Part shown: one piece after another, positions 380 through 38,002 of the stretch
How positions within the stretch are numbered: position 1 is the first letter of the stretch
Layout of the letters: every line of letters begins with the position of its first letter
Assembly: GCA_022425805.1 (NCBI GenBank)
Contig: JAKMEQ010000037.1
Coordinates: 1-38,002 of the forward strand
Length of the DNA: 38,002 bases
Direction: 5' to 3'
Origin: Acidimicrobiales bacterium
GTDB taxonomy: Bacteria > Actinomycetota > Acidimicrobiia > Acidimicrobiales > UBA8592
Notes under the pieces: generated by a model
The model's input: the letters and a program-made list of their open reading frames with translations, nothing else
What the model was told of the DNA's origin: nothing
Database searches by the model: none
Position numbers and translations under genes: made by a program

Positions 380-1150
380 ATGAGCGAGCATCTAACGCGT
401 CCCGGAGAAACAGGCGGCTGGCCAAAATTAAAAATCTCCTACTTGACTGATCCGGAAAAGATCGCTGATTTGCTTCCACCTGGATTAGATCCCATTGGAG
501 ATCCGGTCGTACAGATCAATGTGTACTGTGTCCCAATCTTAGGAGAACCTGAATATGGGGTCAGTACCAAGGTCAGAGCCTCCTTTGACGGGATGGAGGG
601 TCTTTATTGTGTTGGCATGGGCATCGATCAAGAAGCCGCTATCTTCATCAGCCAAGAACTAAACGGCCAACCAAAATTTCCATGCAACATATCGTTCTAT
701 AGGATCGAAAACTATGTGGAAGCGGTCTGTGAACATCAGGGGTACACCTTTATGGAATTCAAAGGACAGAGCACTGGTCTAGAAGAAACCTTAGATGGAG
801 ATATTGAAGAAAATGAGTGGTGGATTAAATCCTCAAGAAAAATCGGCAGTATTGAAAAAGAATACGATTTCCCTCCTCATGTCGTTCGTGTCCACAGTGT
901 CAGCGAACCAGTTGAAATAGAGAATCTTAATGGAGAGCTTGTTCTTCGGGACAGTCCTTGGGACCCTTACACAACGTTGCTTCCGATTCGGGAACAAGTA
1001 TCAGCCCAATTGGTTCGGTCCGCTCATAAGAGCCGTGAGATATCTAATGCCGGACCGCTGGATCCAGATGCATTCTGGCCATATGCGGATACTATCGGTG
1101 GTTCCAGATGGCCAGGTGAACGCGGCGGCCCTCGAAACTGGCGACCTTAG
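380..1150 (+). CDS. Acetoacetate decarboxylase-like protein
   Basis: This 256-residue protein resembles the acetoacetate decarboxylase (ADC) superfamily in length and motif order. The stretch NGQPKFP places Lys99 where ADC enzymes carry the Schiff-base lysine, after a conserved Glu93. ADC enzymes decarboxylate beta-keto acids, but many relatives act as hydratase-aldolases or on larger substrates, so the actual reaction is open. The ATG at 380 is well supported by AAGGAG seven bases upstream. The gene ends two bases before the stop of the convergent SDR gene. Its surroundings (SDRs, amidohydrolases, BVMO, CoA transferase) suggest a role in breaking down ketone- or keto-acid-bearing organic compounds. 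The family call is fairly sure and the substrate unknown. Confidence 0.75.
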   Translation: MSEHLTRPGETGGWPKLKISYLTDPEKIADLLPPGLDPIGDPVVQINVYCVPILGEPEYGVSTKVRASFDGMEGLYCVGMGIDQEAAIFISQELNGQPKFPCNISFYRIENYVEAVCEHQGYTFMEFKGQSTGLEETLDGDIEENEWWIKSSRKIGSIEKEYDFPPHVVRVHSVSEPVEIENLNGELVLRDSPWDPYTTLLPIREQVSAQLVRSAHKSREISNAGPLDPDAFWPYADTIGGSRWPGERGGPRNWRP

Positions 1151-1152
1151 TC

Positions 1153-1986
1153 CTAGAGATTCTCCGACCATTCAGTAAGAAGGCTCCGTTTTTTAACTTC
1201 CCGCTGGGCATTACAAATCTTTCCTCCATATTGTGACCGAGCTTCAGGGTCATCAACGATCCACGCTACTGCCGCTCCTATTACCTCTGGAGGGGCACTA
1301 GGGAAAGCTGTGTATTCTTTATCCTTCTGCTTAATCTTCTGACGTTCAGTTACGACATGCCCGGGGTCAATATTGTAAGCGACGATACCTTCTTCCCCAT
1401 GTTCAACCATTAGCAAGGGGGCCACTCTTTCAAAAGCAGCTTTAGTCATCGCATACCCGACACCCCAACCTCCAGCACCAATCTTTCCCGGTGGATCTGT
1501 GAAGGCCGTAGCAGAAATCATATTGATGACCGTGGCACCACCCTGAGCTATGAAAGCAGGGAGGAGATGACGGGTGAGTGCTATATGTGCAAAAAGGTTC
1601 CCTTCAAACAATAGGGAAAGATACCTGTCTTCTAATTCTTTGAAGGGCAGCATCGCCCCTAACCCTTGGTAGATAGCGTTATTTACTAGAACGTTGATTT
1701 GGCCGAAATGGTCGTAAATAGCATCAGCAGCTGCAAGGACCGAACCTCTATCAAGAAGGTCCATTTCAATGGCATATCCCTGTTGCCCTCGTTGTTGAAT
1801 CTCTTGCAACGTAGTGTCCAAACCACCAGAGACAGCAGTCACTCCATCATCCAAACGTGCGCTGCCGTCGACCATGGTGCGTGCTGCTACAGCAACGTCA
1901 TATCCTGCTTCTGCCAGAGAAATCGCACATGCTCGCCCGATGCCACGACTGGCTCCAGTTACAAAAGCTACTTTTCTTGGCTTCAC
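1153..1986 (-). CDS. Short-chain dehydrogenase/reductase (SDR)
   Basis: This 277-residue classical SDR has the cofactor motif TGASRGIG near the N-terminus, the NNA motif (VLVNNA) and a YAMTK active-site Tyr/Lys motif around the middle. It should be an NAD(P)-dependent alcohol dehydrogenase or ketoreductase. The start is a GTG at 1986, supported by AAGGAG six bases upstream, and no ATG competes. It is transcribed towards the ADC-like gene and away from the amidohydrolase at 2078, from which it is separated by about 90 bases that should hold both promoters. Substrate cannot be assigned. It is one of four SDR genes in the first 17 kb, each divergent enough that recent tandem duplication is unlikely. 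Confidence 0.88.
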   Translation of the reverse strand: MKPRKVAFVTGASRGIGRACAISLAEAGYDVAVAARTMVDGSARLDDGVTAVSGGLDTTLQEIQQRGQQGYAIEMDLLDRGSVLAAADAIYDHFGQINVLVNNAIYQGLGAMLPFKELEDRYLSLLFEGNLFAHIALTRHLLPAFIAQGGATVINMISATAFTDPPGKIGAGGWGVGYAMTKAAFERVAPLLMVEHGEEGIVAYNIDPGHVVTERQKIKQKDKEYTAFPSAPPEVIGAAVAWIVDDPEARSQYGGKICNAQREVKKRSLLTEWSENL

Positions 1987-25909: not shown

Positions 25910-26065
25910 AGAGCACCCTTAGTTGTTCTTCCTCTTTCAGGGTAGTCATATTGACAGGCAGGCCGGTGCAGGAGAGCGTCAAACCCTGAGACGTTTTTTA
26001 TTCTCTATTTGACACAGCGGCAGAGGGTTGAGAATGTAGGGAAAATTCATTAATTGGAGACTTGC

Positions 26066-27148
26066 ATGGATATTCCTTTATTGCCTTCTGAGATAACCCC
26101 AGACTGGTTGACGACTGCTCTACGTTCTAACGAATCTTTCAGTGATGTAGAGGTTGCTTCACTAGCGATACAGGACATAGGTGCAGGAACTGGCATCTTC
26201 GGAGAGATCGGCCTCTTGAGAGTAGAATATGTGGTGCAAGGGAAAGCACCAGATTCACTAGTTATAAAAATGCCATGTGTGGAACCTGAGAACCTCGCTG
26301 TTGCACATGCCTTAGGTATCTACCAAAGAGAATTGAACTTTTTTTCTCATATTGCCCCATCAGCAAGTTTGCGTGTACCGGATTGCTATTACTCATATAT
26401 GGACTCGGATGGCCGTTTCGTTCTGCTCTTAGAGAATTTATCCGTAAATTACGTTGTAGGGGACCAGATCGTTGGAGCAACTGATGAGCAGGTCATTAAT
26501 GCTGTTGAAACGCTCGCGCAATTCCACATTGACTGGTGGGAGAAAGAAGACTTGTCATCTTTATCGTGGTTGCCTGTTCCTGATGACCCGGCTTATATGG
26601 CTGCGGTTCCAAATATTTACCGTGCTGGCTTACCGGTGCTCATCCAAGACTGGTCTGATCGTGTTCCTGCAGAAAGCATCACGATAGCGCAAGAGATCGA
26701 ACCCGATTTTGAGAATCTGATGCTGATGTTCGCAGGAGGTCCACATACGTTTAGTCATGCTGATACAAGGTTAGACAACTTATTCTTTGCCCGCGATAAA
26801 TCATCTGACGTAGCTTTCATAGACTTTCAACTATGTTTGAAGGCCCGGGGGGTAAACGACATAGCTTATTTGGTCGGAAACAGCGTACCGAAAGAATTAG
26901 CAGCGGAACATTGGGAACGGTACCTACGAAAATGGCTTGATCGTATTCAAGCTGCAGGCATTTTGTATTCTTGGGATGATGCTATTTCCCACTATCGGCA
27001 GGCAGTTCTTTATTATACGGTCGGCGCGATGTCATTAATAGGTTCATTTGATACTGGAAATGAGCGTGGGGCCGCCATGGCGGAAGCATACGTGACACGT
27101 ATCTTTAATCATGTCGTTGATATTGAAGCAGCGAGAGTTTTTCGATAA
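26066..27148 (+). CDS. APH-type phosphotransferase (small-molecule kinase)
   Basis: A 360-residue kinase-like protein. Lys68 (LVIKMP) is in the ATP-binding lobe position; HADTRLDN (His231, Asp233, Asn238) is the Brenner catalytic loop and IDFQ (Asp253) the metal-binding motif. The layout is that of the aminoglycoside phosphotransferase/ecdysteroid-kinase-like group, which includes many environmental kinases of unknown small-molecule substrates. Antibiotic resistance should not be inferred. The frame begins with a TTG at 26054, but the ATG at 26066 has GGAG six bases upstream and is preferred. A second member lies at 28008. Confidence 0.82.
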   Translation: MDIPLLPSEITPDWLTTALRSNESFSDVEVASLAIQDIGAGTGIFGEIGLLRVEYVVQGKAPDSLVIKMPCVEPENLAVAHALGIYQRELNFFSHIAPSASLRVPDCYYSYMDSDGRFVLLLENLSVNYVVGDQIVGATDEQVINAVETLAQFHIDWWEKEDLSSLSWLPVPDDPAYMAAVPNIYRAGLPVLIQDWSDRVPAESITIAQEIEPDFENLMLMFAGGPHTFSHADTRLDNLFFARDKSSDVAFIDFQLCLKARGVNDIAYLVGNSVPKELAAEHWERYLRKWLDRIQAAGILYSWDDAISHYRQAVLYYTVGAMSLIGSFDTGNERGAAMAEAYVTRIFNHVVDIEAARVFR

Positions 27149-28007: not shown

Positions 28008-29180
28008 ATGAGAAAGAAGGAGACGCCATTTGTCCCACAGAACGGAGAAGATTTCACGGCTGAATGGTTCACTGACTGCCTGCAGGAACAATTCGGAGCT
28101 GCTGTCCTCGAGGTCAACCGTGAAATCATTGGAACTGGGATTGGCTTTATTGGTGAAATACACCGATGCCATCTTTTCTGGGATGCTGAACGCCCTGACC
28201 TTCCGGAGTCGGTGATAGTAAAAGTTCCATCCAAAATACCTTCTAACCGAGCTTTAGGTGAGGGACTTCAGCTTTATGAACGGGAAACTATTTCTTACCG
28301 TGAACTTGGTAACACAATGGGCTTACCTATGCCCAAGATGTTCTTTTCAGCAATGGATGATGACCCGATACCTTGGTTGGATAGAGTCATCGACTTTCTC
28401 TTCACTAGTCTTCCTATCGGAGCTGTGAACTGGATCACCGTACAGTTCTTAAGAGTTACAGCTAAAAATCCTCGACTGCGCCGGCATCTACTTATCATCG
28501 AAGATATCACTGACGCCCGTCCTCCGAGTCAAGTAGCCGGTGGATCATTAGACGATGCCATAATTGCTCTTACTACATTGGCTAAATTCCACGCAGCTCA
28601 TTGGATGCGGGAAGAGTCCATGGATATCTCCAGTCGGATATGGCCTTTAGACCGACTCCCAAAAGTCTGGCAGGCAAACTACCGGCGAAACCGGAATGAA
28701 TTCCTTCACCGCTTCAGAGAGTTAGTTGGTAGCGAGAAAATCCGTCAACTTGACCAGGCGCAAGTAGATATGCCCAATCTGCTCCGCCCTCTCGGCGAAG
28801 CCCCATGGACCCTTCTCCATGGAGATTACCGGCTTGATAACATCATGTACCGTCCAGATGGCAGCCTCGTCATCATAGATTACCAGATGCTATCGAAAGG
28901 TCGTCCAGGCTGGGATGCTGCTTATTTCATCACTACAGCTCTTAATCCTGAGCACAAAATAGAAGAGGACCGATTGCTACAGCACTACCACCAAGTTCTT
29001 TGCGCATCAGGGGTTTCAGATTACCCCTACATCATGTTCTTGGAAGATGTTCGCTTAACAAAATTGTTGCTCGCTCATCGTCTGGTAGGTGGGAGGGATT
29101 CCTTTGAAACTGAACTACAGGACAACGATGAAACCTTTGTTGATCTTCTGGTTAAAAGGGTTGTCGGCTGGATCGAATAG
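28008..29180 (+). CDS. APH-type phosphotransferase (small-molecule kinase)
   Basis: A 390-residue kinase-like protein with VIVKVP (Lys72), the catalytic loop HGDYRLDN (His271, Asp273, Asn278) and IIDYQ (Asp291). It shares overall layout with the kinase at 26066 but is clearly diverged and has an inserted region around 120-160. It probably phosphorylates a hydroxyl group of an unknown small molecule or acyl-CoA precursor; some relatives work beside acyl-CoA dehydrogenases. The ATG at 28008 follows a run of G (GGGGGG) that can serve as ribosome binding site. It ends 13 bases before the stop of the convergent FAD protein. Confidence 0.82.
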   Translation: MRKKETPFVPQNGEDFTAEWFTDCLQEQFGAAVLEVNREIIGTGIGFIGEIHRCHLFWDAERPDLPESVIVKVPSKIPSNRALGEGLQLYERETISYRELGNTMGLPMPKMFFSAMDDDPIPWLDRVIDFLFTSLPIGAVNWITVQFLRVTAKNPRLRRHLLIIEDITDARPPSQVAGGSLDDAIIALTTLAKFHAAHWMREESMDISSRIWPLDRLPKVWQANYRRNRNEFLHRFRELVGSEKIRQLDQAQVDMPNLLRPLGEAPWTLLHGDYRLDNIMYRPDGSLVIIDYQMLSKGRPGWDAAYFITTALNPEHKIEEDRLLQHYHQVLCASGVSDYPYIMFLEDVRLTKLLLAHRLVGGRDSFETELQDNDETFVDLLVKRVVGWIE

Positions 29181-29193
29181 TGCCCGAAGATTC

Positions 29194-30570
29194 TTAGTCT
29201 TCAACAACATGACTTTCAAAACGGTTAAGCGCCGTCGACCATGCAAGATCATTGAACTCCCCATCTTTAGAGAGGGCATGTGCGGCATCCCATCCCATCG
29301 CAAGAGTGTGATGAATGTTGTCTGGAACGATCAGTCCTTGCCTTCCAAAGCTGGATAAACGACCGAGCGAATTACCCCACTGCAAGAGAGTCTTACGCTC
29401 CTCTCGTGTAGAAGATTCAAAAACTGGATAAACAGACGGAAGTCTGCGAACTTCCGTCGTCACAAGTTTCATTTTTGGTAGCCCTAAGCGAATGAGATCA
29501 TCACTAACAATATTTCCTAACTCTTCATTTGAGGCTGACCAGATAGCATCAGTCTTCCAGCATGGGAGTTCAGCACATAAGATGGTCTGATCTTTTGGGT
29601 CAGAGCCATCCCGATAGTTCTTCGGCTCAGAAAGACGAGCAATCCTAGTATCGAGACCGGGGAAATAATGAGCATCGAATTCTGTGAATTGTGGCTGGTC
29701 CAACACTAAGTAGACGAGAACCATCCCGCGCACACGTAATGCTGCTGCCGCTTCTGTTACATTCTTATCTGGTTTGGGCCTTACGATTGTTGGCAAAATA
29801 TTAAGGGGAGATGTCGTCCAAACAAGTTCTGCTATATGTCTGCCATTTATTGACTCTAAATGGCAGTCACCATCATTTAAATGAATCTGTTGTACCGGAG
29901 AATTTAATTCTATTTTCCCACCTGCGGAGATTACGGCATCGGCAATAGCTTCAACGATCTGTCCATAGCCATTTCGAGGGTAAAGAAAAGCTCTGCCGGA
30001 CGGAGATGAAGATTTGATTAAACGACGAAGAATAGTAAGAGGGGATGATGCTGAAACTCTACGTCGCGCCAATTCACTATCGATTTTGCTCGGGTGGAAC
30101 CCCCATAACTTTTCGGCATAAGGCGTGTAGAACTCATCTGAAACCGTTTTCCCCAACCTGCGAGTAACTTCATGCTGAAAGGTATCTTCATTAGCTCCGA
30201 GAAATGGTCTTCGGACAATATCAAATGCTGAACTAATAGAAAATTTCAATGGGAGGTGACGAAAGAGGTCCGCTGTCCGTAGAGGAAATGCCACCCACTT
30301 GTCATAAAGACGTATTCGTCCATTTCGTTGGCGGGTTTGCAGGTCTTCGCCAAGTAAAGATCTAATTGCTTCTAAAAGGTGAGGGGGAGTCGAAGGGTGG
30401 AGGCGATGTGATCCGTAATCTACCCGTTGACCTTCTATTGAAAAGCTTGCAGACATGCCGCCTACGTCGGAGCTTCCTTCGAAGACAGTAACCTCATGTC
30501 CAGCTTCTGCTGCTTGCCATGCAGCCATTAATCCGGCCGGTCCCGCCCCAACGATAGCTACCTCCGTCAT
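29194..30570 (-). CDS. FAD-dependent amine-oxidase/UDP-galactopyranose-mutase-like protein
   Basis: A 458-residue flavoprotein. The N-terminus has VAIVGAGPAGLMAAW, an acidic ribose-binding residue (VTVFEG) and GGMSASF followed by VDYGSHRLHP. YTPYAEKLWGF is typical of the group that includes protoporphyrinogen-oxidase-like and UDP-galactopyranose-mutase-like enzymes found in polysaccharide clusters. It might isomerise or oxidise a nucleotide sugar or a lipid-linked glycan. It diverges from the NDP-sugar epimerase across about 110 bases that contain a putative iron box overlapping a minus-strand TACAAT -10 hexamer. The ribosome binding site is weak (AAGAAA). The substrate is unknown; heme synthesis is less likely in this context. 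Confidence 0.75.
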   Translation of the reverse strand: MTEVAIVGAGPAGLMAAWQAAEAGHEVTVFEGSSDVGGMSASFSIEGQRVDYGSHRLHPSTPPHLLEAIRSLLGEDLQTRQRNGRIRLYDKWVAFPLRTADLFRHLPLKFSISSAFDIVRRPFLGANEDTFQHEVTRRLGKTVSDEFYTPYAEKLWGFHPSKIDSELARRRVSASSPLTILRRLIKSSSPSGRAFLYPRNGYGQIVEAIADAVISAGGKIELNSPVQQIHLNDGDCHLESINGRHIAELVWTTSPLNILPTIVRPKPDKNVTEAAAALRVRGMVLVYLVLDQPQFTEFDAHYFPGLDTRIARLSEPKNYRDGSDPKDQTILCAELPCWKTDAIWSASNEELGNIVSDDLIRLGLPKMKLVTTEVRRLPSVYPVFESSTREERKTLLQWGNSLGRLSSFGRQGLIVPDNIHHTLAMGWDAAHALSKDGEFNDLAWSTALNRFESHVVED

Positions 30571-30632: not shown

Positions 30633-30686
30633 TTATAAATGTAAACTATAGATGTCATTTATTGATATGAATACCGATTGCAGGGA

Positions 30687-31658
30687 ATGATGGGAAAATC
30701 AATTGTTACAGGAGCTGCAGGCTTCATAGGTTCGCATCTCACTGAACGTCTTTTAGACATGGGAGAGACTGTAGTTGGAATTGACAACTTTGACCCCTGG
30801 TACGACCCTAAATCAAAAGAATCGAATATTCGGTTCGCTCTCGCTAATCCAGATTTCTCAATAATAAAAGAGGACGTCCTATCTTTGGACTTAGGGAAAG
30901 TCTTCAATGAGGGCGACGTTGTTTATCACCTAGCCGCTCGACCCGGAGTGCAAGATTCATGGAATACAGGATTTTCTGCAAGTGTTGAAAATAACATCCT
31001 CGCCACCCAGCAAGTCTTCGAATCTGCTTTAATAAGCGGGGTGCGGCGGGTCGTTTTTGCGTCAAGCTCTTCTGTGTATGGAGAGTCAGCCACAGAGGAC
31101 ACTAAATCTATTTCTCCCATAAGCCCATACGGGGTTTCAAAAGCAGCATGTGAGCAACTTGCTGATGTATATCGAGCTCGTGGTTTAGACATAATGATCA
31201 TGAGGTATTTCACTGTATATGGACCCCGCCAACGTCCTGATATGGCAATGAACCGACTATTCCGTGCCACCCTCCCTGGGACATACAGATTCCCCCTCCG
31301 CGGTAATGGAAGTCAAAGGAGGGAATTCACATTTATGAAAGATGTTGTTACTGCCAGCATCAAAGCAGGAAGTTTAGATCTCCAAGAAATCTCTGCCCCA
31401 TTTGATGTTGGCGGAGGTGTTTCCGCTTCACTCGGTGAAGTGATGTCAATTGTTGAGGAGCTCGTAGGGGCTCAGCTGCGGATAGATCAGGAACCTCTAG
31501 CGGTAGGAGATCCACTTATCACTGTAGCTTCAACAGATTTCACGGAAAGCGTTCTAGATTGGAAAGCTACCACAGACCTCAGAGAGGGGCTAGCGCAACA
31601 TTATGACTCCTTTAAAGAAAGGGTTTCATCTAATTCGGGAGAAATAGTCGAATTTTGA
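30687..31658 (+). CDS. NAD-dependent epimerase/dehydratase (extended SDR)
   Basis: An extended SDR of about 323 residues. It has VTGAAGFIGSHL for NAD binding, YHLAARPGV, the catalytic SSSSVYGE with YGVSKAACE (YxxxK), and MRYFTVYGPRQRPDM. This is the layout of UDP-glucose/UDP-glucuronate 4-epimerases and related NDP-sugar dehydratases, which supply activated sugars for surface glycans. The frame starts at a TTG (30678), but the ATG at 30687 places the glycine motif right at the N-terminus; ATG 30690 is an alternative. The last 58 bases overlap the 3' end of the convergent GT-C-like gene. Confidence 0.85.
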   Translation: MMGKSIVTGAAGFIGSHLTERLLDMGETVVGIDNFDPWYDPKSKESNIRFALANPDFSIIKEDVLSLDLGKVFNEGDVVYHLAARPGVQDSWNTGFSASVENNILATQQVFESALISGVRRVVFASSSSVYGESATEDTKSISPISPYGVSKAACEQLADVYRARGLDIMIMRYFTVYGPRQRPDMAMNRLFRATLPGTYRFPLRGNGSQRREFTFMKDVVTASIKAGSLDLQEISAPFDVGGGVSASLGEVMSIVEELVGAQLRIDQEPLAVGDPLITVASTDFTESVLDWKATTDLREGLAQHYDSFKERVSSNSGEIVEF

Positions 31659-33010
31659 GCCTTCCCTTTCCGCAGGAATGGCAGGATCGATAATACTGAT
31701 AGAGCGATCCACAATATATTGAGTAGAGCTGATTTCGTTCCAAAATCCCTGAAGTTTGGGAAAATAGAAAATAGAAACCTATATATGGGGTATCCGGTTT
31801 CTTCAAAATCAACAATCAATGTTCGACGACCGGTCTGTGCTTCTACCGCTAGCCAAATCCATCCGGTTATAGCAACAACCCCTCCGGAAAAAATATACCA
31901 GCGCCAAACCTTATGTTTCTCAGATAATATCGCTAGCAAAATAATTGCTGCAGGTAGTATCACAACAAGTTGCCGGCCTGGCCACCACCATCCATGCATA
32001 GTTAGCGCTACCCAAGTAGCGACAACCCAACCAGTTACCGTTACCACCCCGAGAACAGACCAATGCTTAACCCGCCATTTTATTGCAGCGACACATGAAG
32101 GAATAAGAGCAAAATAGAATGGAGCCCATGGGACTAAACCAAACCCCCTATCAAACAGCAACCCTGACAACCTTCGAGAGCGGGCAGAAAAATTTGGATT
32201 TCTCCCGACGACTTCGAATTCTCCATTAATGAAATGGTCCCCACTTGAGTAGACGGTCCACCCACCATAAATACGTTGATGAATAAAGAGATATATCAGG
32301 CCAGAAGCAAATAAAATTCCTCCGAAGATGAATAGGTCTTTAAGATTTTTCTTACGAAGGAGAACTACGGTTACGAAAACAAGGGCAAAAGCCACGGGGA
32401 CGTATTTCACCGATAGCCATGGCAAGGCGGTCACCGGAATGGATAGCCAGAGAAGTTGGGGTCTTTTAAGTTCTGAAGTCACAAGGCCAACTCCAAGTAC
32501 CAAACACAAAGCAGCAAGCATCTCAGGGTAGACCTGTGTCGCGTACACAGTCATTGGCGGAGCAGCAAAAGACATCCCGACAACGACAGTAGCAATAGAT
32601 TCAGAAACTGAGAAACGTCGAACTGCTACCCAAAGTGTTGCCGCCGCTGTCACGGCAGCAATCAAAGCAAGAGTAAGCTTCGCTGCCAGCCATCCTCCCA
32701 ATCCCATCGGTATTGCCAAAATAAGAGGAAGCAGGGGATCATGGGGGCTAATCCGCTGCCCTTCCTCATTCAGGTCAATTGTTTGCTGATTTAGTTTCAA
32801 TGGGTGATACGCCCAGTATTTTTTATCTTCAAGTTCATCGCTGATATCAAGATCCCCGTCTTCTATAAGACTCTGAGCAGTAAGGAGATACTGAGGTTCA
32901 TCAACACTTATTTTTGCTCCATAAGTAGCTTGCGCATTTATCGCCACCATGGCGAATGCAAAAGTAGTAATAGCTACAAGAACAAGCTTCAGCCGAAATG
33001 AACGGCTCAT
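31601..33010 (-). CDS. GT-C-like polytopic membrane protein
   Basis: A 469-residue membrane protein with about ten or more hydrophobic segments. After the first helix comes VDEPQYLL with an acidic pair (Asp37-Glu38) in the first external loop, where GT-C enzymes using polyprenyl-phosphate sugars keep their catalytic acid. Loops with HPL and ISPHDPLL follow. I therefore read it as a GT-C-type glycosyltransferase, though function is unproven. Its ATG overlaps the stop of the upstream iron permease gene as ATGA, so it is translationally coupled to an Fe(III) transporter, which is an unusual pairing. The 3' end overlaps the convergent epimerase gene by 58 bases. Confidence 0.65.
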   Translation of the reverse strand: MSRSFRLKLVLVAITTFAFAMVAINAQATYGAKISVDEPQYLLTAQSLIEDGDLDISDELEDKKYWAYHPLKLNQQTIDLNEEGQRISPHDPLLPLILAIPMGLGGWLAAKLTLALIAAVTAAATLWVAVRRFSVSESIATVVVGMSFAAPPMTVYATQVYPEMLAALCLVLGVGLVTSELKRPQLLWLSIPVTALPWLSVKYVPVAFALVFVTVVLLRKKNLKDLFIFGGILFASGLIYLFIHQRIYGGWTVYSSGDHFINGEFEVVGRNPNFSARSRRLSGLLFDRGFGLVPWAPFYFALIPSCVAAIKWRVKHWSVLGVVTVTGWVVATWVALTMHGWWWPGRQLVVILPAAIILLAILSEKHKVWRWYIFSGGVVAITGWIWLAVEAQTGRRTLIVDFEETGYPIYRFLFSIFPNFRDFGTKSALLNILWIALSVLSILPFLRKGKAQNSTISPELDETLSLKES

Positions 33011-34611
33011 AGGTGATCGGCTCTACGGATTACCAGAAACCATGTAAGTGCGAAAGAAAGAAGCACGAGGATCACAGCCATGATTCCTGCTTCCGCAACG
33101 AATGCATCTTCAAATGAACTAAATATCCGCGTTGCGAGAGTCGAAAATCCGAGTGGCGAAATTAGGAGAGTGATTGGGAGTTCTTTCATGGTTGAGAGGA
33201 TCACAAGTCCTGCTGCCGCTGCTAAACCCGGCGCCATAAGAGGAATATCTATCCGAAAAAAACGTGATGGTCTCTTAGCCCCAAGTGTTTGTCCCACGTC
33301 ATGGAGTCTTTTCGGAACTGCAGCGACTGCGACAAGTACTACTCCCATGGCAAGTGAACCAAATCGCACAATATATGAGAATACAAGAAGAGTCTTTGTA
33401 TTATCTAGAAGCTCAAAAGCCCAATCCGTGCGTAAAACCCAGAACCGCATTGATAAGGCAATGAGAAGGCCAGGAACAGCAAAGGTAGCGATTACTACTG
33501 CATGAGCAATGCTTCCGGTACGTGACCGGTAGCGGGCTACGAGAAAAGCTATAGGTAGAACCGCTAACACAGCAACGAAACCTGAAATGACGCTGATAGA
33601 GAGAGTATTCCATGTGGACTCTATAACCTGTCCCCTATCAACTGTTAGTGGAGACCCACCACGCGTGGTCCGAGATATTCCATCGGCGGCCCAATCTCCC
33701 AAGGCAAGCATGGGAGCCCCGATCGAAAGAAGCAGTACTAACAGAACTGTCGCTAGACCAGGTATACGCCATTTACCTAATGTGTACCTAACAGGTTTTC
33801 CTGTAAGAGTTTCTTCAGAAGTAAACGTTACTTTTGAGAAAAACCGTTCTGAAAGCACAATTACAGCAGCAAGAAGAAGAAGCAAAAGGCTCAAAGCGAG
33901 AGCTGTTGATTGATTAATTAAACGGTTCGTATAAATACTGCGCGTTAAAGTGTCGTAACGCATAAGTTGAACAGCGCCAAAATCACTAATGGTATAGAGA
34001 AAGACAAGGAGGCTGCCAGCAGCGAGAATCGACCCTATCTGCGGCAAAACAATCCGTCTAAACGTTTGGAAGGAAGATTGTCCTAAAACTCGTGCATTCT
34101 CCTCTAACGACCCTGGAAGTTGGCGTAAACGTGCTGCAACAGGGAGATAAACATATGGGTAACAAAAAAGAGTCAGGACCAACCATGCCCCAAAGAACCC
34201 TCGCATTTCCACGATCGTATCTATCCCAATCCCGCCCAACATACGATTTATTAATCCGCCAGGGTTCATCGTCCGAATAAAGGCAGCTGCTCCGATGAAG
34301 GTCGGGAATACTAAGGGTATTGGAAGCAAGATTCGCCAAAGACGATTTCCGAAAAGATCAGTGCGACTAGTGAGCCAAGCAAGAGCTGTCCCAATCACAG
34401 CGGTCGTCATTGAAACGGTAAAGGCCAGGGAGACAGTCCTCCATAAAGGAGCAAGTACCCGTTGAGTGCTAATCAATCCAATCGGATCAGATTCCTCTGT
34501 GAAGTTACGCCAGACAAGGTATAGGCCCGGAAAGCTAAATAGAAATGCAAAAGCATAAACTATCAGCCGGAGCGTAACCGGAGTTGATCGTTTTATTTCA
34601 ATTTGGCTCAC
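33007..34611 (-). CDS. Fe(III) ABC transporter permease (FbpB/FutB type, fused)
   Basis: A 534-residue permease containing two BPD_transp_1 units of about six helices each, the fused two-domain form typical of iron(III) and thiamine ABC importers (FbpB, SfuB, ThiP). EAA-type loops are visible as ENARVLGQSSFQTFRRIVLP in the first half and DVGQTLGAKRPSRFFRIDIP in the second. It should form the membrane channel for iron delivered by the binding protein encoded just upstream. The start is a GTG at 34611 that overlaps the upstream stop as GTGA. No ATPase gene is found in the window, so that subunit would have to be supplied from elsewhere. Confidence 0.87.
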   Translation of the reverse strand: MSQIEIKRSTPVTLRLIVYAFAFLFSFPGLYLVWRNFTEESDPIGLISTQRVLAPLWRTVSLAFTVSMTTAVIGTALAWLTSRTDLFGNRLWRILLPIPLVFPTFIGAAAFIRTMNPGGLINRMLGGIGIDTIVEMRGFFGAWLVLTLFCYPYVYLPVAARLRQLPGSLEENARVLGQSSFQTFRRIVLPQIGSILAAGSLLVFLYTISDFGAVQLMRYDTLTRSIYTNRLINQSTALALSLLLLLLAAVIVLSERFFSKVTFTSEETLTGKPVRYTLGKWRIPGLATVLLVLLLSIGAPMLALGDWAADGISRTTRGGSPLTVDRGQVIESTWNTLSISVISGFVAVLAVLPIAFLVARYRSRTGSIAHAVVIATFAVPGLLIALSMRFWVLRTDWAFELLDNTKTLLVFSYIVRFGSLAMGVVLVAVAAVPKRLHDVGQTLGAKRPSRFFRIDIPLMAPGLAAAAGLVILSTMKELPITLLISPLGFSTLATRIFSSFEDAFVAEAGIMAVILVLLSFALTWFLVIRRADHL

Positions 34612-35705
34612 TTATTAAGGATGCCACTTGCCTCGATGATTCGCGACGCTTCTTCAAAACCTCCACCAAGTTTATCGAAGTCAACTGATCCAATTTCCAA
34701 CGCTGTTAGTTCCGGTAAGGCTGCATTAGGTTGAATCCCCGCAGCAAGTGGATACTCGAACGTCCGATCAGTGAAATACTGCTGAACGGGACCTGTCAAC
34801 AAATATTGAAGGAGGTTTTCTGAAGCTTCAATATTTTCTGAAGACTGGAGAATCGTTGCAGCGGTTATCACAAGTAAAGAGCCTATATCCTTGTTATCGA
34901 AGTCGTAGTTTTCAGCTTTGTGAGCATTTCCTTCTGAGGCTTTGATTTGATAATTATAATAATGGTTAACCAGACCCATAGAAATCTCGCCTCTACCGGC
35001 TGCTTCTACGATAGATCGGTTATTGGGATAATAGGTCGCCCCGTTTGTGACCATGTCATCAAGCCATTGGGTTGCTACATCTTTGCCATGAACGTCCATA
35101 AAGACTGTAAACCAGTCAATAAACGAACCATTCGTGCCAGGTAGAGCTACTTTGTTACGGAATTCTTCGGCAGTAAGGTCAAAAACTGATTCGGGTAGGT
35201 CTTTTGGGCTGTATTCATCAGTGTTATATACCATGACACGTTTCCGTCCAGAGAAGCCGACCCAACGTCCAGCAGCAGATCGGTTCTGTGATTCGACAAG
35301 ATCGAGGGTTTCCGAACTGATTTCTCCAAGTAAGTCTTTTGATTCGAGATATCCGACAGGACCAGGTGAACGAGAAAGAAATACATCGGCGAGGGTTTTT
35401 TCCCCTTCTTCATTTATAAGAAGAGCTAAATCTGTCGAAGCGCCCCATCTAACTTGAACATTTGTTCCTGTTTCGCAGGCAAAGGCTTCAAGTACCGGAT
35501 TGATAAGATTTTCTGTTCTTCCTGAGTAAATCGTTACTGTGCTGCCATTTGAGCCAGCACACTTTTCGATACCTGGAGGATAAATCTCTGCAGCTCTCCC
35601 ATCAATAGTCTGAGGGTTTCCGTTGCCGCAAGAAGCAAGGATTAAAATAGTTATTAGGGTTAAAAAAAGGATTCGTAATCTCATGGCGTTGAACTGTACC
35701 CGCAT
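34608..35705 (-). CDS. Fe(III)-binding lipoprotein (FbpA/FutA type)
   Basis: An extracellular solute-binding protein of about 365 residues. It opens with a lipoprotein signal, hydrophobic FLTLITILILASC, where the cysteine near residue 26 would be lipidated. TIYSGRTENLI is typical of periplasmic iron-binding proteins, and NHYYNYQ (tyrosine pair about 249-250) matches the Tyr-Tyr iron ligand motif of FbpA-type proteins. It should deliver ferric iron to the permease encoded downstream. The frame opens with TTG at 35714; ATG at 35705 and ATG at 35684 are alternatives and no strong ribosome binding site selects among them. A minus-strand TACATT hexamer nine bases before the ATG at 35705 suggests a nearly leaderless transcript. 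Confidence 0.87.
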   Translation of the reverse strand: MRVQFNAMRLRILFLTLITILILASCGNGNPQTIDGRAAEIYPPGIEKCAGSNGSTVTIYSGRTENLINPVLEAFACETGTNVQVRWGASTDLALLINEEGEKTLADVFLSRSPGPVGYLESKDLLGEISSETLDLVESQNRSAAGRWVGFSGRKRVMVYNTDEYSPKDLPESVFDLTAEEFRNKVALPGTNGSFIDWFTVFMDVHGKDVATQWLDDMVTNGATYYPNNRSIVEAAGRGEISMGLVNHYYNYQIKASEGNAHKAENYDFDNKDIGSLLVITAATILQSSENIEASENLLQYLLTGPVQQYFTDRTFEYPLAAGIQPNAALPELTALEIGSVDFDKLGGGFEEASRIIEASGILNK

Positions 35706-35714
35706 TTTTACCAA

Positions 35715-35735
35715 AATGTAAAGCTATCCTAACGT
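35715..35735. promoter_or_regulatory. Divergent promoter with a putative DtxR/IdeR-type box
   Basis: Only 35 bases separate the ATG codons at 35705 (minus) and 35741 (plus). TAAAGCTATCCTAA at 35719-35732 matches the TTAGG-N4-CCTAA palindrome in 8 of 10 positions. It overlaps a minus-strand TACATT (35715-35720) and a plus-strand TAACGT (35730-35735), each spaced to give leaderless or nearly leaderless transcripts. A repressor bound here would block both directions. The match is the weakest of the four boxes. Confidence 0.4.
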
Positions 35736-35740
35736 TTAGT

Positions 35741-37363
35741 ATGAAGTTAGCTCGTCATAGCCATTATCTTAAGAATCCTTTTATCGTCTTCTTCGTATCG
35801 GTAGTCAGCCTAGGAACAGCTGCGGTCGTTATTTTTCAGTTGATAGATGTTTCTTCCTTCAAGGATGCTATTCGTCAGGCTAGTGATGAGCCTTTAGGTG
35901 TCTGTCTTGCTATCGGCTCGTTTGCCTTAGCATTTTTTCTTAGAGCATTAGCATGGAAGAAAGTACTCCCATCGATTTCACTTAAGCAAAGCCTTGCAGG
36001 AATTCACCTTTCACTTGGCGCTAACCATGTCCTCCCCTTCAGACTCGGTGAACCTTTTCGGGTTGTGAGTATTGTCAGGAGAAGTTCTACTTCAATTGAT
36101 GCAGCTACAGCTTCCACATTGACCTTGCGATCGGCAGATGTACTCTGTGTGATTGTGATTGGTGCCGTAATAGCCCCAGCAGCTTTTGCTGATTTGCTCG
36201 GATGGGTTGGTTGGGTATTAATCGGGATTATCAGTGTTATCTGTTTTTTTTCCTTCGATTGGTTAAAAAAAATTGTCAAACGTAACGATTCTGTCAAATT
36301 ACCAGGCCCTGTCGCTATCGGACTTTCAGCAGTTGCTTGGCTATTGGAATCGATATTGGTTTGGCAATGCGCACACTGGGCGGGTTTGAATGTCTCTTGG
36401 AGCGATGCCCTACTTGTAACAACAGTTGCGGTTGGAGCTCAAATTGCAGCTATCGCTCCAGGTGGTTTTGGGACTTACGAGGCTGCAGCCGTTGCGGCAT
36501 ATGTAACTTTAGGATATGAGGCTGAAGCTGCACTTGTCTCTGCCCTAACTGCTCATACTTTAAAAACTATCTACTCGCTTGTTGCAGGTGGAATAGCTAT
36601 TTTGACTCCTAAACCAAATCTATTAGGACGGATCCGGCTCCAAAACACTTCAGAGTTAAAGCCCGTTCGTTCTCTAGTAAACAATCCCGTACTTCTGTTT
36701 CTCCCTGCCTTCAATGAAGAAGATGCTGTCGCTGACTGTATCCGGCGTGTCCCAAAGCAAGTATGTGGCCTACCTGTGCAATGTCTAGTTATTGACGATG
36801 GGTCAAAAGACAATACAGCGGAACTTGCGGCCGCCGAGGGAGCAGAAGTTATTTCACTACAACAAAATCAAGGTTTAGGAGCAGCAGTCCGAGTTGGGCT
36901 TTCGGAAGGAGTAAATCGTGATGCAAGCGCTGTTGTATTTGCAGATGCAGATGGAGAATACCCACCAGAAGAACTCCAAAACCTTGTAGAACCAATCCTT
37001 AGTGGGCAGGCAGATTATGTAGTTGGCAGCAGGTTTTTGGGCGATATTCAATTCATGCGACCCCATCGAAGATTCGGGAATTTAGTACTTACACGTATTC
37101 TTTCACTTATTGCGAGAAGAAAAATCACAGACGGACAAAGCGGGTATCGGTCTTTCTCACCACGGGCAGCGAATGCAGCAGAGATAATTCATGATTTCAA
37201 TTACGCCCAAGTCATTACACTCGACTTGCTTGCAAAGGGGTTTACCTATTTAGAAGTTCCTATCAGTTACCATTTTCGAACAACAGGTGAAAGCTTCATA
37301 AAGCTTTTTCCATACCTTCGTAAAGTTATTCCAGCTGTTTATCGAGAAGTAAATTCAACCTAA
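35741..37363 (+). CDS. UPF0104/LPG-synthase-type membrane domain fused to GT2 glycosyltransferase
   Basis: A 540-residue two-domain protein. Residues 1-290 form an integral membrane domain of the UPF0104/lysylphosphatidylglycerol synthase transmembrane type, with NHVLPFRLGEPFR (95-107) and the hallmark APGGFGTYEA (239-248). Residues 315-540 form a GT2 glycosyltransferase: LPAFNEEDAV, VIDDGSKDNT (350-359), the metal-binding DADG (402-405) and the GQSGYRSF loop (465-472). It resembles dolichyl/polyprenyl-phosphate sugar synthases. These two modules are usually separate genes; here one chain would make and perhaps flip a lipid-linked sugar. The ATG at 35741 lacks a ribosome binding site and follows TAACGT by five bases, suggesting a leaderless mRNA. 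It is divergent from the iron-binding protein gene. Confidence 0.82.
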   Translation: MKLARHSHYLKNPFIVFFVSVVSLGTAAVVIFQLIDVSSFKDAIRQASDEPLGVCLAIGSFALAFFLRALAWKKVLPSISLKQSLAGIHLSLGANHVLPFRLGEPFRVVSIVRRSSTSIDAATASTLTLRSADVLCVIVIGAVIAPAAFADLLGWVGWVLIGIISVICFFSFDWLKKIVKRNDSVKLPGPVAIGLSAVAWLLESILVWQCAHWAGLNVSWSDALLVTTVAVGAQIAAIAPGGFGTYEAAAVAAYVTLGYEAEAALVSALTAHTLKTIYSLVAGGIAILTPKPNLLGRIRLQNTSELKPVRSLVNNPVLLFLPAFNEEDAVADCIRRVPKQVCGLPVQCLVIDDGSKDNTAELAAAEGAEVISLQQNQGLGAAVRVGLSEGVNRDASAVVFADADGEYPPEELQNLVEPILSGQADYVVGSRFLGDIQFMRPHRRFGNLVLTRILSLIARRKITDGQSGYRSFSPRAANAAEIIHDFNYAQVITLDLLAKGFTYLEVPISYHFRTTGESFIKLFPYLRKVIPAVYREVNST

Positions 37364-37515: not shown

Positions 37516-38002
37516 TTGAGATCAAAACTTTTACTCTTAACATTCCCAATCCTAGCCATCTTCAGCCTCGTAGCTGCCAGTTGCGGCGATGACGACGGCG
37601 GCGGCGTTCGGGATTTAAATAGTTCATCAAACTCTGCAAGTTCAGGATCTAGCTCCGCTTCAGGATCTAGCTCCGCTTCAGCGTCTAGCTCCGCTTCAGC
37701 ATCTAGTCCCGCTTCAGCATCTAGCTCCGCTTCAGCATCATCGGCAGCAGAAGTTGTCGCTGATACCACTCCTGGCGATGGTGGATATGAATACGCTTCT
37801 AACGTTGACTCACATCGTCTCGTCGTCGCAGATATTTGCGACATAAATGATGCGCTTGGAGAATACAACTGGGCTGCAGCGCTTGAGATCTATGAAAACG
37901 GAAAAAATTCTGTTAAATCTTCAGGTTCTGTTCGGACCATCGGCGGCTTCGCTGCTGCAGAAGGAAAGGGTCATGGTTTCGATACTTTCTATGGAACACC
38001 AA
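37516..38002 (+). CDS. Repeat-linker lipoprotein resembling FEA1-type low-iron proteins (partial)
   Basis: An open frame runs from a TTG at 37516 off the end of the window (162 codons seen). AAGGAG at 37505-37510, five bases upstream, supports the start. A lipoprotein signal (LLLTFPILAIFSLVAASC) ends in a lipobox cysteine at residue 23, followed by an acidic/glycine stretch and a Ser/Ala-rich linker encoded by five 18-base repeats. The globular part then begins: ADICDINDALGEYN, LEIYENGKNSVKS, SVRTIGGFAA and FDTFYG. From memory these resemble the FEA1/low-iron-inducible periplasmic protein domain. The promoter carries two putative iron boxes, which fits a surface protein made under iron limitation. 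The C-terminus is missing, so the family is tentative. Confidence 0.6.
   Translation, partial: MRSKLLLLTFPILAIFSLVAASCGDDDGGGVRDLNSSSNSASSGSSSASGSSSASASSSASASSPASASSSASASSAAEVVADTTPGDGGYEYASNVDSHRLVVADICDINDALGEYNWAAALEIYENGKNSVKSSGSVRTIGGFAAAEGKGHGFDTFYGTP
37645..37734 (+). repeat. Five tandem 18-base repeats encoding a Ser/Ala linker
   Basis: Five consecutive copies of an 18-base unit (first copy GGATCTAGCTCCGCTTCA; later ones begin GCG or GCA, and one has AGTCCC) keep the reading frame and encode six residues each, Gly/Ala-Ser-Ser-Ser/Pro-Ala-Ser. They form a flexible spacer between the lipid anchor and the folded domain. Copy number can change by slippage without shifting frame. Confidence 0.9.

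Follow-up and report, generated by a model that had tools for sequence, protein, structure and literature searches.

Why should an operon for iron uptake carry a gene for a membrane protein that resembles a glycosyltransferase? This question is raised by a 38,002-nucleotide contig (JAKMEQ010000037.1) of an Acidimicrobiales bacterium, which we call the window and which is the entire contig C89 of the source genome G000 (1.57 Mb in 104 contigs, 74% complete). Three genes on its minus strand encode a ferric-iron-binding lipoprotein of the FbpA/HitA/FutA type (34608-35684), a fused two-domain, FbpB-like ATP-binding cassette (ABC) permease of 534 residues (33007-34611) and a GT-C glycosyltransferase-like membrane protein of 469 residues (31601-33010), and they are joined by 4-nucleotide overlaps at 34608-34611 and 33007-33010. 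We reproduced these coordinates of the original prediction, but its proposal that the GT-C protein replaces the ATPase gene of the importer did not hold. We propose instead an iron-regulated cluster that joins a complete FbpABC-type importer to lipid-linked glycosylation of iron lipoproteins. Our inference covers the activity of the enzymes, the identity of sugar and acceptor, and the gain for iron capture; we give the proposal an even chance of being correct.

The binding protein is ferric-type, as predicted, by its PDB matches (the best being 7w3w, E 4e-57, with HitA, FbpA and FutA also found) and by an NHYY motif that aligns with NNYY of 7w3w, the tyrosine pair of ferric-type binding proteins. 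It has the lipobox ILASC. Its reading frame spans 34608-35714, opening at TTG 35714, and ATG 35684 is a likelier start than either this TTG or ATG 35705. BPD_transp_1 (PF00528) matched the permease in two stretches; the NCBIfam equivalog names returned for permease and binding protein (2-aminoethylphosphonate and others) scored far under their cut-offs and were not used. An ABC ATPase gene is indeed absent from the window, no PF00005 match being found on C89. The right end of the window falls inside a reading frame (37516-38002), C89 ends in the 12 bases with which another contig, C22, begins, and the cut frame, of the Fea1 family, runs on across the join. The fbpC/futC-like ATPase that was to be sought elsewhere in the genome lies on C22 about 0.8 kb past the window end (789-1868, minus strand). 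It has 359 residues with ABC and TOBE domains (PF00005, PF08402), its best PDB matches include the iron ABC ATPase 9j4r and FbpC 3fvq, and it is 75% identical to its counterpart in the congener G002.

Could the GT-C protein nevertheless stand in for the ATPase, forming with the binding protein and the permease an unusual ATPase-less transporter? The window without an ATPase gene and the overlap between the permease and GT-C genes speak for this. Overlaps of 4 bases of the ATGA or GTGA kind are frequent among bacteria and say little by themselves; more telling for the coupling is that the permease/GT-C junction stays at -4 or -1 in six congeners and that the two genes are neighbours again in distant genomes. 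Against replacement, the C22 ATPase has its orthologue next to the trio in congeners. In G002, G010, G001, G004 and G014 a single contig carries, in order, the ATPase (+), a Fea1-like lipoprotein (-), a flippase-GT2 protein (-), the binding protein, permease and GT-C protein (+), an epimerase (-) and a flavin adenine dinucleotide (FAD) protein (+), placing the ATPase two genes away from the binding protein in the GT-C-bearing congeners. Where congeners lack the GT-C gene (G003, G005, G006 and G017), ATPase, binding protein and permease stand in direct succession; a convergent DtxR-type repressor gene (PF01325/PF02742) then follows the permease in three of the four, and the contig of G005 stops in the permease. 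ATPase and GT-C genes also occur together in G097, where ATPase, binding protein, permease and GT-C genes are all co-directional, and in the locus L150, whose order is binding protein, permease, ATPase, GT-C, the last two genes overlapping by 4 nucleotides. Replacement is ruled out by the C22 ATPase and these gene orders, and we give it practically no credence. By its tyrosine-pair binding protein, its permease with a double BPD_transp_1 match and the TOBE-containing ATPase near the operon, the importer is classed as FbpABC-type, with ferric iron as its putative substrate. Judged by its genes it is complete and ordinary, two genes parting the ATPase from the binding protein and a GT-C block following the permease. 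When operon genes seem to be missing near contig ends, the remaining assembly should be checked. Contig breaks recur at the GT-C/iron locus in the genus (G000 C89/C22, G015 C46, G012 C97, G016 C14 and G007 C72), which suggests strain-level variation.

What kind of protein is encoded by the third gene? No Pfam family matched it, a PDB sequence search with it gave no match, and it reached 32.3 bits with NCBIfam NF047440 (the LA_3751/LA_3752 putative glycosyltransferase family), below the curated cut-off of 200. An AlphaFold2 model was built from 16 homologues (predicted local distance difference test, pLDDT, 82; predicted template modelling score, pTM, 0.88), for which Foldseek returned ArnT (5f15) as the top PDB match (E 1.8e-4, probability 1.00), with ALG12, ALG3, STT3, EmbA/B, AftA, PglB, AftB and PMT among further matches. 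GT-C enzymes make up almost the whole of the 35 best matches, with TM about 0.5. The earlier GT-C-like call is upheld by this comparison, and the 469-residue protein is predicted to have a GT-C fold and putative transferase activity. It is polytopic, and the acidic DEP loop previously noticed in it is present: D37-E38-P39, in the first outer loop, is invariant in 16 of 16 homologues. Further invariant positions in this set are H90 and D91, QxYPE at 159-163 (with E163) and R346. The pattern may resemble that of PMT enzymes, the catalytic residues of ScoPMT being D113, H159, D233 and R510 (PMC12757957). We rejected an identification as a GT39 Pmt, PF02366 giving no match; in the genus, PF02366 matched only reading frames of about 1570 residues, none of them in this genome.

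Is the association with iron transport more than an accident? A scan of GTDB genomes returned 144 relatives, of which 80 were kept. These are nearly all Actinomycetota (Acidimicrobiia and Nitriliruptoria), two records being oddly labelled, and the relatives bearing names are marine Acidimicrobiales. The locus counts rest on 63 GT-C loci with sufficient upstream sequence. In 43 of these loci the GT-C gene comes immediately after the permease, and in 54 an iron-type permease lies within 9 kb; at 60% GT-C identity the loci form 21 clusters, 19 of them with an iron-type permease nearby. Further genes recur in the neighbourhood. A flippase-like (LPG_synthase_TM) domain fused to a GT2 polyprenyl-phosphate-sugar synthase-like domain, encoded in the window by the divergent partner of the trio (35741-37363, plus strand), is found in 60 loci. 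An FAD oxidoreductase of the PRK07208 or UDP-galactopyranose-mutase-like type (29194-30570, minus strand) is found in 55, and a nucleoside diphosphate (NDP)-sugar epimerase-like protein (30678-31658, plus strand), whose gene overlaps the GT-C gene tail to tail at 31601-31658, in 38. The ATPase is near in 43 loci, a DtxR-type gene in 42 and a Fea1 gene in 26. The prediction had also asked whether the third gene is absent from most relatives. This is the case, a full-strength GT-C protein occurring in only 18 of 148, but where it is present an iron transporter adjoins it in most loci, and the shared role suggested from the coupling is borne out by the wide conservation of the trio.

The coupling was gained or lost at least 7 times on the permease tree, and some GT-C loci hold another, non-orthologous iron ABC transporter, with permease identity of 27-31% and a separate clade (for example L150). 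This repeated joining to non-orthologous transporters points to function rather than inertia. One may object that this is an ordinary conserved neighbourhood, in which an iron transporter and glycan genes came to stand beside DtxR historically and use a common promoter with no functional link. The many gains and losses would fit that view, as would the GT-C genes without an adjoining transporter (G024, G037, G118 and G030), which mostly lie beside a DtxR-type gene. Repeated re-association, including that with a non-orthologous transporter in another gene order, argues the other way, and so do the linkage to Fea1 and the iron boxes found both at the common promoter and at tagged lipoprotein genes (see below). 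We regard a neighbourhood of this kind as improbable, and the coupling of importer and GT-C protein appears old and not accidental across Acidimicrobiia and Nitriliruptoria.

Some individual loci deserve mention. Both locus versions are present in one metagenome-assembled genome, G012 (L065/L066, on C97 and C30), one with the permease followed directly by DtxR and one with GT-C, epimerase, FAD protein and DtxR; the pair might represent two alleles or a duplication, or the genome may mix strains. In G147 (L070, 6361-8160) the permease next to the GT-C gene has an interrupted frame, recovered as two tblastn pieces, possibly a pseudogene or an assembly error. The left flank of the window locus is unlike that of congeners in that the FAD gene is not accompanied by a DtxR/NAD-kinase-like/SDR block, and two ecdysteroid-kinase-like (EcKL, PF02958) genes lie nearby at 26054-27148 and 28008-29180.

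Is the cluster under the control of iron? The binding-protein and flippase-GT2 genes diverge from a region that holds a DtxR/IdeR-like iron box, AAATGTAAAGCTATCCTAA (35714-35732, unstranded), which matches at 15 of 19 positions. Over 43 dereplicated divergent regions the mean best box score was 13.7 against 11.06 +/- 0.39 for permuted palindromes, none of 300 scoring as high, and 17 of the 43 regions reached 15/19 where 0.17 would be expected. Upstream of tagged lipoprotein genes the score was 12.1 against 10.9 +/- 0.24, and once more none of the 300 permuted palindromes did as well. In congeners, the region preceding the ATPase scored no higher than shuffles. The operator-like box at the divergent promoter fits a DtxR/IdeR regulon, with repression putative.

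What might the transferase act upon? The reading frame at the window end (37516-38002, plus strand) encodes the N-terminal part of a Fea1-family (PF07692) lipoprotein, whose gene continues on C22:3-713; PF07692 gives 100.6 bits with the orthologue and 63.4 bits with the C22 part (gathering cut-off 25). It bears the tag CGDDDGGGVRDL with a Ser/Ala/Gly tract behind it (37582-37752, plus strand), the tract lying past the lipid anchor. A scan of GT-C loci gave the tag consensus C-G-x-D-D-G-x-x-V-R-x-[ILV]-G followed by a Ser/Thr-Gly/Ala tract, carried by Fea1, cupredoxin-like (PF13473) and imelysin-like (PF09375, M75) lipoproteins and by a Peripla_BP_6 lipoprotein. In several GT-C-bearing genomes there are also mini-lipoproteins with only the tag, 33-66 residues after the anchor (L092 8642, L157 2891, L160 10395, L181 2681, L250 and L251). 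The motif is present in 61 of 97 GT-C loci against 0 of 26 iron loci without the GT-C gene. Outside the genus, verified tagged lipoproteins were found in 4/9 relatives with the GT-C gene and 0/121 without it, and in 11/20 and 0/60 class members, respectively, the class sample without the gene being rich in genomes of one small-genome genus. Pooled, this amounts to 15/29 against 0/181 (Fisher 2.5e-15, with no correction for ancestry). The tagged gene lies away from the GT-C gene in G030, G076 and G147. A second tagged lipoprotein of the present genome (G000:C33:44820; L249 2817) is of the Peripla_BP_6, Liv-type, family and starts with CGNDDGVGVRSVG and a Ser tract. Fea1 proteins from genomes without the GT-C gene (G062, G361, G566 and G314, with a broken copy in G101) have no tag and do not group together on the Fea1 tree. 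An exception to the pattern is Fea1 of G678, where a GT-C fragment is present: it has a Thr/Gly tract and no VRxI motif. In G062 (L187, G062:C4) the untagged Fea1 gene lies beside another iron-type permease, which speaks for an iron-related function of Fea1 in bacteria. The tracking of the GT-C gene by tagged lipoproteins across genomes, the occurrence of the tag on four unrelated C-terminal domains and the tag-only mini-lipoproteins together support the glycosylation reading.

The same sugar-related genes could serve another end: the GT-C, flippase-GT2, epimerase and FAD proteins might build an envelope glycan or glycolipid under iron limitation, such as an iron-binding or barrier polymer, with the Ser/Gly tracts as mere tethers. 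Glycan assembly typically involves epimerase and UDP-galactopyranose-mutase-like genes, the cell-wall arabinosyltransferases EmbA/B, AftA and AftB are among the Foldseek matches, and some GT-C loci have no tagged lipoprotein. On the other side, tagged lipoproteins track the GT-C gene (15/29 against 0/181) even off-locus, and a plain tether leaves unexplained a tag common to unrelated domains and tag-only peptides. We consider glycan assembly the main competitor, though unlikely.

Several observations weigh against glycosylation of the tagged lipoproteins. The DtxR-type gene of this genome was itself not located. The ferric-binding lipoprotein carries no tag, and Ser/Gly tracts can be plain flexible tethers. 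In the available sequence 36 of 97 GT-C loci have no tagged lipoprotein, and none was found for the divergent GT-C clade of G026 and G033. Two 76% complete metagenome-assembled genomes with no detected GT-C gene, G005 and G017, carry a tagged Peripla_BP_6 lipoprotein with a Ser tract, so the tag does not strictly require the GT-C enzyme. The Fisher counts disregard shared ancestry. An imelysin-like fold for Fea1 was considered and rejected: the model is good (pLDDT 91) but has no PDB fold match below E 0.3, and Fea1 iron binding here therefore rests on family and context.

Nevertheless, a glycosylation module is the simplest reading that takes in the transporter, the GT-C protein and its conserved neighbours, together with the iron box and the way in which tagged lipoproteins accompany the GT-C gene. 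It could operate as follows. At low iron, a DtxR/IdeR-type repressor would be relieved and the divergent promoter at 35714-35732 would open. The epimerase and the FAD protein would shape a nucleotide precursor, from which the flippase-GT2 protein would make a polyprenyl-phosphate sugar and perhaps flip it. In lipoproteins of the Fea1, imelysin and cupredoxin types a Ser/Thr-Gly tract comes after the lipid anchor, and outside the membrane the GT-C protein would move the sugar onto the hydroxyls of this tract. Once decorated, the linker would keep the iron-binding domains off the membrane and feed iron to the binding protein and permease. More tentatively, and with somewhat less than even confidence, we propose a dedicated, iron-regulated protein glycosylation in Acidimicrobiia and Nitriliruptoria, in which a non-GT39 GT-C enzyme reads a portable N-terminal tag (C-G-x-D-D-G-x-x-V-R-x-I-G and a Ser/Thr-Gly tract). 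By decorating them, it would turn iron-capturing lipoproteins with unrelated folds, and the tag-only mini-lipoproteins too, into mucin-like surface stalks for the ferric importer. If true, this would mean that protein glycosylation is tied to iron scarcity in marine actinobacteria that are abundant and uncultured, and it would provide a sequence tag for predicting glycosylated lipoproteins from genomes. It would also suggest what lipoprotein glycosylation is for in bacteria, a process still described as enigmatic (PMC12757957).

How does the cluster compare with known systems? It shares with the ferric importers FbpABC and FutABC a ferric-type binding protein, a fused two-domain permease and an FbpC-like ATPase, and differs from them by the divergent two-gene insert that in this genus separates the ATPase and by the GT-C gene after the permease. 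The unusual feature is that genomes of two actinobacterial classes link the importer with a predicted membrane sugar transferase, as well as with iron-related lipoproteins whose common serine-glycine tag the transferase may decorate. Among GT-C_A enzymes, which habitually use a lipid-phosphate sugar donor, ArnT (GT83) is the best structural match of the GT-C protein (5f15, probability 1.00); identity is about 14%, and a different acceptor would be expected, the host not being expected to have lipid A. The tagged lipoproteins bear Fea1, imelysin M75 or cupredoxin-like domains, as do EfeUOB/imelysin and algal Fea1 iron-assimilation proteins (PMC3143127, PMC9174327), but in the open-access papers to which our literature search was confined no system of tagged lipoproteins and a GT-C enzyme was found described, and searches on bacterial Fea1, on DtxR with glycosyltransferases and on GT-C with serine-rich linkers gave nothing on such a cluster. 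A precedent comes from Streptomyces, where Ppm1/Pmt O-mannosylate substrate-binding and metal-binding lipoproteins (PMC6593405, PMC5882110), which shows that chemistry of this kind occurs in the phylum (PMC6593405). The Ppm1/Pmt (GT39) system likewise pairs a polyprenyl-phosphate sugar synthase with a GT-C enzyme that has an acidic residue in its first outer loop (PMC6593405, PMC5882110, PMC12757957), and its acceptors, lipoproteins including substrate-binding and putative iron-transport proteins, resemble the putative acceptors here. Unlike Pmt, the present GT-C protein matches neither PF02366 nor any other Pfam family and is encoded in an iron operon, and its putative acceptors are marked by a specific N-terminal tag.

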